Made by a program: the position numbers and the translations under genes. DNA of 64,000 bases. Origin: Aminobacter sp. HY435 (lineage in GTDB: Bacteria; Pseudomonadota; Alphaproteobacteria; Rhizobiales; Rhizobiaceae). Under the pieces are notes generated by a model, which saw nothing but the letters and a program-made list of their open reading frames with translations, did no database searches and was not told where the DNA came from. Location of the stretch: the NCBI RefSeq assembly GCF_027568395.1, contig NZ_JANKZL010000004.1, positions 62,001 to 126,000 on the forward strand, in the 5' to 3' direction. This document shows, one piece after another, positions 40,425-43,040 of this stretch. Numbering within the stretch: position 1 is the first letter of the stretch; every line of letters starts with the position of its first letter.

Positions 40425-43040
40425 TCAGCCCGCCTGCCCGACCCGCTCGAACCATTGGTCCTCGGAAATCACTTCGATGCCCAGGTCGGTGGCAGCCTTG
40501 AGCTTCGAGCCTGCCCCCGGCCCGGCGACCACCAGGTCGGTCTTCTTGGACACCGAGCCGGCGACCTTGGCGCCGAGCTTTTCGGCCATCGCCTTCGCCT
40601 CGTCGCGCGACATCTTCTCCAGCGATCCGGTGAAGACTACGGTCTTTCCCGAGACCGGCGACGACACGTCGCCGATGCGTTCCTCATCGAGCGGAGTTAC
40701 TTCGGCAACAAGCGCGTCGACCACCTGCCGGTTGTGTTCCTCGGCGAAGAACTCGACCACCGCCTCGGCGACGATGGTGCCGATGCCGTTGATCCCGGTC
40801 AATTCCTGCCAGGCGGCATTGCCCTTGTCGCCCTTGCCTTCGGGCATGACGGCGGCCTGGCCCGCCTGCCGCAAGGCATCGAAGCTGATGTAGTGGCGCG
40901 CCAGCCGCTTGGCGTTGGTCTCGCCGATGTGGCGGATGCCGAGCGCAAACAGGAACCGCGAGAATTCGACCTGCCGCCGGTCGTCGATTGCCGCGAAAAG
41001 CTTGCGCGCCGACGTCGCGCCGAAGCCGTCGATGTTTTCGAGCTTGGTCAGCGAGCCCTCTTGTCGCCGCCTCAGCGTGAAGATGTCGGCCGGCGAGCCG
41101 ATGTGCAACGCCGGATCCTGCGACTGGAAGAAGAACTCGATCTGCTTTTCACCGAGGCCCTCGATGTCGAAGGCGTTGCGCGACACGAAATGGCGAAGCC
41201 GCTCCACCGCCTGCGCCGGGCAGATCAGGCCGCCGGTGCAGCGGCGCACCACCTCGCCCTCCTCGCGCACCGCGTGGCTGTCGCAGGCCGGGCAGCGCGT
41301 CGGAAACGGGTAGGACTGCGCATCCGCCGGCCGCTTTTCCATGACGACATCGAGGATCTGCGGAATGACGTCCCCCGCCCGCTGGACGATGACGGTGTCG
41401 CCGACGCGGATGTCATGGCCCTCGTCGCGAATGGCCTGGCCGCTGTTGCCGATGCCCTTGATGTAATCCTCGTTGTGCAGCGTGGCGTTGGTCACCACCA
41501 CGCCGCCCACCGTCACCGGCTGCAGCCGCGCAACCGGGGTCAGCGAGCCGGTGCGGCCCACCTGGATGTCGATGCCGAGCAGCACGGTCGTCGCCTTCTC
41601 CGCCGGAAACTTGTGCGCAATGGCCCAGCGCGGGCTGCGGGAGCGGAAACCAAGACGCGCCTGCAAGTCGAGTTGATCAACTTTGTAGACGACACCATCA
41701 ATATCGTAGTCTAGAATCGAACGATCTAAGCCAATCTCACGATAATGCGCAATAATGTCATCTATCTTGACCAGCCTCTTCATCATCGGATTGACCGGAA
41801 AACCCCACAGCTTAAACACTTCAACCATACCAAGTTGCGTGTCAGCCGGCATCTCTGACATTTCCCCCCAGGCATAGGCGAAGAAGCGGAGTTTGCGCCC
41901 TTCTGTCACCGACGCGTCAAGCTGTCGTAGCGATCCAGCCGCCGTGTTACGAGGATTGACAAAGGCCTGCTTGCCCTCTGCTATCATCTGTTCATTCAGC
42001 GCTTGGAAATCGCTCTTGGCCATATAGACCTCACCCCGCACCTCAGCGATGGCTGGGGCACCTGCCGGCAACTCTTTCGGAATCTCACTGATAGTACGAA
42101 TGTTGGCGGTCACGTTTTCCCCGGTCGTGCCATCTCCGCGCGTCGCCGCGCTCACCAGCCGACCGTTTTCGTAGCGGATCGACATAGAAAGGCCGTCAAT
42201 CTTAGGTTCGGAGGTGAATCGGATCGAGTCGTCTGGAAAGCGACCTAGAAAACGATAGACGGCCCCCACGAAATTCCGAACGTCTTCATCAGAAAATGCA
42301 TTGTCCAGCGACAGCATCGGTCGAGTATGGACAATCGGAGCGAATGTCGGCAGCGGTGCGGCGCCTACAACTTTCTGCAAATCATCTTGCAGCCTAATAT
42401 ACTTTCTCCCCTCCTCAGCAATTACTGAGTAAAGTCTCTTCAAATAGTCAAAACTAGAGTCGGTTATAACCGGCTTATCATACTTGTGATACATCTCATC
42501 GGCGAACAAGATATAATCACGAAGCCTATCCAAATCACCTTTGATATTTCCAATCTTCCCAGAAAAGAAATCCCTTATGTACAATCTCTTATCCGACTCA
42601 GAGTTCCGCAACGATATCTCATTGTGGAATTTATGCATTTCATTTATGATTTCCTTCCCACCAGAGAAGTACAATTGATGAAAAACATCGGATAAGTCAG
42701 ATTTGTATAAATTAGGAGCAATCAATACATAGTCATCTGCAATGTCATTGATCTTTTTGCTTGTTCCGACAAATTGATTTGTTTCGCTTAATTTCTTTTC
42801 TAGCTTTGTAATTATACTAAACGGTACAAACTCCCGTTCAACAACAAGCGTCTCGCTCGGGAAGCGAGCCAATAGAACTGCAAGTTTACGCTTTAGAACA
42901 TCATACTGCATGTCCGATATTTGTGGTGAACCCACAATATAAGCATGATCATGCTTGTTTAGCAACTTAAGCAAGTTGGCCGCTTCGACGCCAGCCTCTT
43001 GCCTTGTTACATTTTCGACGTCACTGAGATCTATCGGCAT
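40425..43040 (-). CDS. ligA: NAD-dependent DNA ligase LigA with duplicated NMN-binding domain
   Basis: LigA seals DNA nicks using NAD+. This product is 871 residues from [10 protein letters not shown], about 170 longer than usual. Two copies of domain Ia are visible: residues 22-65 (SDMQYD; His of the usual YH replaced by I35) and 171-226 (Y184-H185, D194, F197, D198), the second directly joined to [10 protein letters not shown]. The adenylation site is EPKIDGLS (K280). After residue 467 come the OB domain, a Cys4 zinc finger (CPACDS...CTGGLICP), HhH repeats and BRCT ([18 protein letters not shown]). The first half is AT-rich, most strongly at 42365-43030, while the second half has normal high GC. 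The frame is intact. It follows recN after 161 bp. Confidence 0.95.

Follow-up and report, generated by a model that had tools for sequence, protein, structure and literature searches.

The question raised by this locus is how LigA, the essential DNA ligase dependent on nicotinamide adenine dinucleotide (NAD+), came to be encoded by a gene whose front and rear parts differ in ancestry, and which contains two copies of domain Ia. The window, that is the whole stretch of DNA analyzed, comprises 64,000 nucleotides from Aminobacter sp. HY435, and ligA occupies positions 40425..43040 on its minus strand as a confirmed open-reading frame (ORF). Judged from the ancestry of its segments, the gene is a mosaic that was remade in place by recombination, with an adenylation part derived from the same bacterial family and not from a remote organism. 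The front of the protein is a module, in which two Ia domains (Ia1 and Ia2) enclose a conserved middle stretch, and a homologous module is present in the LigA of Rhizobium metallidurans.

The 871-amino-acid protein is LigA by score, domain order and Ia residues, and sealing of nicks with NAD+ is its predicted activity. It passes the equivalog cut-offs of TIGR00575 (737.5 bits, cut-off 444.45) and PRK07956.1 (842.8 bits, cut-off 369), and its Pfam domains follow the canonical order of adenylation, OB, Zn finger, HhH and BRCT. The KxDG lysine motif reads KIDG (residues 280–283). The Ia domain directly N-terminal of the adenylation domain is Ia2, which has the full set of residues contacting nicotinamide mononucleotide (NMN), Y184, H185, D194, F197 and D198, as had been claimed from the sequence. 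A search of the genome, rated 99.99% complete, with LigA returned a single match, ligA itself, and the gene adjoins recN, its usual position in genus mates.

Identity to the ligases of nine genus mates changes in steps along the protein, from 91–95% over residues 457–871 to 59–62% over residues 231–456 and 35–37% over residues 171–230; the genus-mate locus L008 equals L115 (Aminobacter sp. AP02) in every segment value, which places the genome in the AP02 group. The closest matches to residues 231–456, with 84–87% identity, come from four genomes out of seven searched in another Rhizobiaceae genus, labelled Rhizobium g54. One of these matches is apparently Rhizobium rhizolycopersici (the values of locus L070 equal those of L047).

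Phylogenetic trees, each of 62 rows (60 selected loci, the window and the R. metallidurans locus L094, with the other loci left out), place the two parts of the protein with different relatives. Residues 231–467 fall inside the Rhizobium g54 clade with support of 97/93, or 100/99 for the larger set, on a long end branch (0.24 vs 0.034 for L141). Residues 475–871 fall inside Aminobacter (95/91 and 100/98) on a short end branch of 0.023. The original prediction, made from the sequence alone, had proposed that the front half of LigA was exchanged by recombination, and these placements bear it out.

The downstream join lies inside the conserved SRSPRWA motif (41619..41645, minus strand), as shown by the alignment and by sites which the protein shares only with the donor group or only with the recipient genus. 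In this region, donor-only sites stop at residue 466 and recipient-only sites begin at residue 474, with a lone earlier recipient-only site at 414; the crossover is thus located within 41643–41621. This agrees with the earlier placement of a join near 41640, in a conserved motif between the adenylation and OB domains. Identity, tree and site analysis assign residues 231–466 (41643..42350, minus strand), the adenylation domain, to the Rhizobium g54 type. The OB, Zn, HhH and BRCT domains (residues 474–871, 40428..41621, minus strand) are native to Aminobacter according to Pfam, identity, tree and sites. Adjoining segments of differing and well-supported ancestry, separated by a sharp join, are what defines a mosaic gene, and ligA has both. 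The upstream join (43070..43092, minus strand) was located by blastn and alignment and has the native recN–ligA gap on its recN side and foreign DNA on its ligA side; blastn homology to the nine genus mates starts at 43072–43092. A possible ribosome-binding site, AGGG, was read from the sequence at 43047..43050 (minus strand), 6 nt before the ATG at 43040, and both lie inside the foreign piece. A second in-frame ATG is found at 43097.

Base composition follows the same division. The guanine-plus-cytosine (GC) fraction at third codon positions, in 25-codon blocks, is 0.24–0.76 through residue 456 and 0.76–1.0 from residue 457, in line with the AT-rich front and native-looking rear seen earlier. 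Overall GC rises in steps, from ~35% over residues 82–206 to ~55% over 232–431 and 60–79% after 457. Among 600-bp intervals taken every 50 bp across the 64 kb, 24 of the lowest 30 in GC overlap ligA, among them the 20 lowest of all, with a minimum of 0.387 for those starting at 42351–42401. The other six start at 2801–3001 and 15501. The lowest-GC patch outside ligA (2801–3600, ~0.545–0.56 in 600-bp intervals) lies mostly between two long ORFs. At fourfold-degenerate sites, 39% of the donor-type part is A or T, as opposed to 5–15% in three Rhizobium g54 genomes, and its differences from these genomes run GC-to-AT in 36–39 cases and AT-to-GC in 2–10. Because of this excess and this skew, the donor-type allele probably passed some time in surroundings with an AT bias before its arrival. 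The earlier claim of a foreign, AT-rich front is correct in that the front is not native, and is refined in two respects: the adenylation part comes from the same family, and the AT-richness is stepped.

The module contains two Ia domains, as had been noted before. The Pfam family Nlig-Ia matches two stretches within residues 1–231, with 28.5 bits jointly (cut-off 27, lax E-value of 10), of which only the better one, at 171–200, was placed. PHROG ligase families have their best stretch either on Ia1 (34–75, 23–55) or on Ia2 (169–223). A hidden Markov model (HMM) of rhizobial Ia domains gives 39.1 bits for residues 1–75 and 26.1 bits for residues 161–228, and a mixed Ia profile gives 34.5 bits for Ia1 and 31.4 bits for Ia2. 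A sequence search of the PDB with the module returned 16 sequences. Fifteen are DNA ligases, each matched at either Ia copy (best E-value 0.0038), and the non-ligase is M2-1 (E-value 0.36). A weak Pfam row for Tim54 over Ia2 (10.5 bits) was not believed.

Ia1 (residues 13–65, 42846..43004, minus strand) is degenerate. It has Y34, D43, Y46 and D47, and Ile35 replaces the His, the absence of which had been pointed out earlier. An Ia fold had been expected at residues 22–65; the AlphaFold2 (AF2) model contains a helix pair at 13–36 and 43–59, with a predicted local distance difference test score (pLDDT) of 56–86 per ten-residue block, which does not speak against the expectation. Ia2 (residues 166–226, 42363..42545, minus strand), recognized by the HMMs, keeps the NMN-binding residues. 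In the model, Ia2 and the adenylation domain are predicted to be arranged as in the E. coli LigA–NAD+ complex, with which they align from residue 163, the structural comparison being mainly over residues 230–456.

Although the two Ia copies are real, the description of Ia as duplicated proved inexact, because Ia1 resembles the native Ia of rhizobia more closely than it resembles Ia2. Ia1 shares 23 of 54 residues with the Ochrobactrum Ia (score 100) and 10 of 23 aligned residues with Ia2 (score 42), so that, unlike the products of a tandem duplication, the two copies are not mutually closest. The “VEN-L/V” start of Ia1 is also found in several rhizobial ligases.

Between the copies lies a conserved stretch of ~100 residues (66–165, 42546..42845, minus strand), which has the lowest GC and is covered by no Pfam, PHROG or PADLOC row. 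Its only relative among the 103 loci compared (of 143) is that of R. metallidurans (L094). The original prediction described a linker of about 105 residues at this place; the stretch is there, and it is more than a linker, since another LigA, swapped independently, has kept it too.

This second carrier, R. metallidurans DSM 26575, has an 861-amino-acid LigA (L094:4338-6923), located after recN, with a homologous arrangement of Ia1, middle stretch and Ia2. The two proteins are 41% identical over the module and 38% over the middle stretch, in which KINDI and YFSGG are invariant. The R. metallidurans gene is AT-rich to about residue 200 and GC-rich beyond. Its DNA matches the two closest relatives through 4286–4287, and the match resumes at 4983. 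Compared with L111 and L103, both of which are without the module, identity is 96% over the adenylation domain and 98% over the C-terminus. By these comparisons the R. metallidurans swap is of the module only, with a native adenylation domain and C-terminus. The swaps in the two genomes overlap only in the module, and hence it is the module, and not the adenylation domain, that is the shared unit. In R. metallidurans Ia2 scores 19.8 bits with the rhizobial Ia profile and 23.4 bits with the mixed one, and Ia1 is decayed further, more than the His being lost. A TetR_C_8 row over residues 80–115 of this protein (14.6 bits, cut-off 26.1, E-value 0.036) was not believed. The genome-contig scan which yielded R. 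metallidurans was limited to the top 80 among 592 confirmed loci, so that carriers matching residues 231–700 less well may be missed. The module profile, run on overlapping sets of 394, 3, 148, 200 and 155 genomes, found carriers only in the window genome and in R. metallidurans. One of the loci, L138 (JAHREI010000004.1), is titled Bacillus subtilis strain SK6B4 and contains a ligA of Rhizobiales type, 69% identical to the query, which suggests a mislabelled or contaminated record.

Taken jointly, it is quite probable that ligA recombined in place with a donor ligA, that the module supplies a non-catalytic arm and that the module is under selection. The sequence shows that the donor was an AT-drifted, fast-evolving ligA of the Rhizobium rhizolycopersici group, which supplied residues 231 to about 470, and that residues 1–230 lie on this foreign block too. 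The 3′ crossover is in the conserved motif and the 5′ end in the recN–ligA gap. Ia2 would carry out the normal NMN binding and closing during enzyme adenylation, with Ia1 and the middle stretch forming an N-terminal arm. The simplest reading of the two copies is that some rhizobial ligase acquired, between its old Ia and its adenylation domain, an inserted segment consisting of the middle stretch and another Ia of LigA type, and that the old Ia subsequently decayed to become Ia1. An extra ligand site had originally been named as a possibility; an additional NAD site in Ia1 is unlikely, since Ia1 has lost the His here and more in R. metallidurans.

Selection on the module, a weaker claim than that of the arm, appears likelier than its absence, because the module entered an essential gene in two lineages whose swaps were otherwise different. 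In other systems mosaic targets are known to alter the access of inhibitors. By analogy, the module might be selected because it alters the access of an antagonist, a phage or a competitor, to the Ia and adenylation face; this is a guess. An extended version, in which the cassette of Ia1, middle stretch and Ia2 moves by recombination between the ligA genes of rhizobia and takes the place of the NAD-reactive front wherever a phage or competitor factor attacks Ia, with the decayed Ia1 serving as a decoy or shield, is unlikely.

Several observations weigh against recombination with selection on the module. The donor allele was not found in the genomes searched; four of the seven Rhizobium g54 genomes passed the search threshold, and their frames of 718–752 residues are without the module. 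The sister pairing of residues 231–467 with L141 alone is weak (92/70). The division into an old and an inserted Ia hangs on ~4–5 bits per profile, Ia2 also aligns with the Ochrobactrum Ia (19 of 48 residues, score 88), and the R. metallidurans Ia1 reaches only 11.2 bits with the rhizobial and 7.5 bits with the mixed profile. The middle stretch is modelled with pLDDT below 50 from an alignment that is two rows deep there. Among the 50 structure rows listed, four align from residues 156–163, and most other ligase rows start at 230–234. An exact-pattern scan of genome contigs with the window module found nothing, though the collection includes R. metallidurans. The argument for selection consists of two cases only.

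The vehicle of the module might have been an AT-rich phage or mobile replicon, which captured a rhizobial ligA, evolved fast and recombined back; this is possible but less likely than not, and fits a selected as well as a neutral outcome. The AT drift and the long branch of residues 231–467 are consistent with it, as are the AT-richness of both modules within GC-rich hosts and the occurrence of LigA in phages. The module was, however, not found in the records searched: module queries at an E-value of 0.1 matched none among 50,697 phage or 72,556 plasmid records. Exact-pattern scans of IMG/VR viral contigs did not find it either; as such scans are insensitive, one having missed R. metallidurans, these viral negatives weigh little. 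With residues 60–230 as the query against phages, at an E-value of 10, three records were found, each matching Ia2 alone. Residues 66–300 matched 94 phage records, but coverage of the query stayed below 80% in all of them, and the 30 matches listed all start at query position 89 or later, shortly before or in Ia2. Residues 1–456 matched four phage records with at least 80% coverage, Aeromonas phages AVP1, pAEv1810 (two records) and ACP1, spanning residues 65–455 with ~25% identity. AVP1, the one of the four that was examined, was rejected as a module carrier: its match starts within a hypothetical gene and continues beyond it into the gene of an ordinary ligase, the middle-stretch profile gives 1.1 bits, and the match is on these grounds ascribed to chance. 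The LigA of phage Totoro, the match of which seemingly extends into the linker, is of ordinary length with separate small genes upstream. The ligA of R. leguminosarum pSK03, considered as a plasmid donor, sits in an ftsZ–lpxC–bamD–recN block, on a replicon whose record calls it a plasmid, and was likewise rejected.

Phages also encode solo Nlig-Ia proteins, which were described from 81 phages and proposed to act in NAD+ sensing or shielding (PMC9503650). A tblastn search with the protein of Rhizobium phage RHph_I4 gave matches in 183 phage records, including other Rhizobium phages; in this 229-residue hypothetical protein (L155:3929-4618), a Pro/Arg-rich tail, where VRTR-type motifs recur, comes after a solo Nlig-Ia-like domain. 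A solo protein as the source of Ia2 was suggested by a pairwise score and rejected by profiles, where Ia2 reaches 18.3 bits with the solo type vs 37.4 bits with the LigA type. The R. metallidurans Ia2 behaves in the same way (11.5 vs 28.7 bits), and in leave-one-out controls the nine solo and 24 LigA sequences each had their higher score with their own kind. The Aminobacter genome itself contains, outside the window, a T7-like prophage with genes for an RNA polymerase, DNA polymerase, primase-helicase, Gp2.5-like single-stranded DNA-binding protein (SSB), endonuclease, and head and tail proteins. It encodes a 94-residue solo Nlig-Ia protein (L153:7400-7684, minus strand, equal to C21:155399-155683; 42.9 bits, cut-off 27), directly before the primase-helicase gene. 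The frames listed on the same strand and lying entirely between the genes for the RNA polymerase and the SSB have at most 172 residues, too short for a ligase. The GC content of the prophage stretch is 60–65% per kilobase, which indicates that it is not the source of the AT-rich module.

The main rival to selection on the module is neutral recombination, in which a stray piece of a related ligA replaced the front half by chance and the module is tolerated cargo without benefit. This is somewhat doubtful. Just two carriers were found, the middle stretch is poorly predicted and all ordinary LigA domains are there without the module; against this, the middle stretch has been kept across the two carriers, with its invariant motifs, and the two replaced stretches coincide exactly in the module. 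A misassembly of two organisms is very improbable, given a single unbroken frame in which every domain is at its expected place, native DNA flanking it on either side, a donor-type part nowhere closer than 87% among the genomes searched, and a homologous module in an unrelated assembly. Least credible is an in situ tandem duplication of Ia with fast divergence and without transfer, which accounts for two Ia domains in one gene and is contradicted by the discordant segment trees, the closer likeness of Ia1 to the Ochrobactrum Ia and the sharp switch of identity at residue 470.

Elsewhere in the window, a permuted transfer-messenger RNA gene of the alphaproteobacterial type is located at 15781–16141 on the plus strand (RF01849, 305.5 bits).

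The window protein has the same canonical order of catalytic and DNA-binding domains as ordinary LigA (TIGR00575/PRK07956; PF22745, PF01653, PF03120, PF03119, PF12826, PF00533), and differs from it by ~165 extra N-terminal residues, which comprise the degenerate second Ia and the conserved stretch without a family match. The R. metallidurans LigA is similar in its AT-rich module and its normal place after recN, and differs in that only the module was swapped and Ia1 is further decayed. The solo phage proteins are comparable in that a free-standing Ia shows that this domain can travel apart from the ligase (PMC9503650), while the window Ia2 is of the LigA and not of the solo type. Domain Ia is found only in the NAD+-dependent ligases, and efforts to develop inhibitors have concentrated on it (PMC8123306). 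Its exchange on two occasions for a larger module suggests either that Ia is under an unrecognized pressure or that the enzyme is unexpectedly tolerant. LigA and mosaic genes are already known; for a LigA in which two Ia domains flank a conserved middle stretch, the whole being exchanged as one unit, no description was found in a limited search of the open-licence literature. Mosaic penicillin-binding proteins are encoded by mosaic essential genes made by homologous recombination, and resemble the window ligA in that an essential target was partly replaced in place by the allele of a relative. Unlike in their case, no drug or antagonist is known for the window ligA, and the gene has gained a new domain arrangement.
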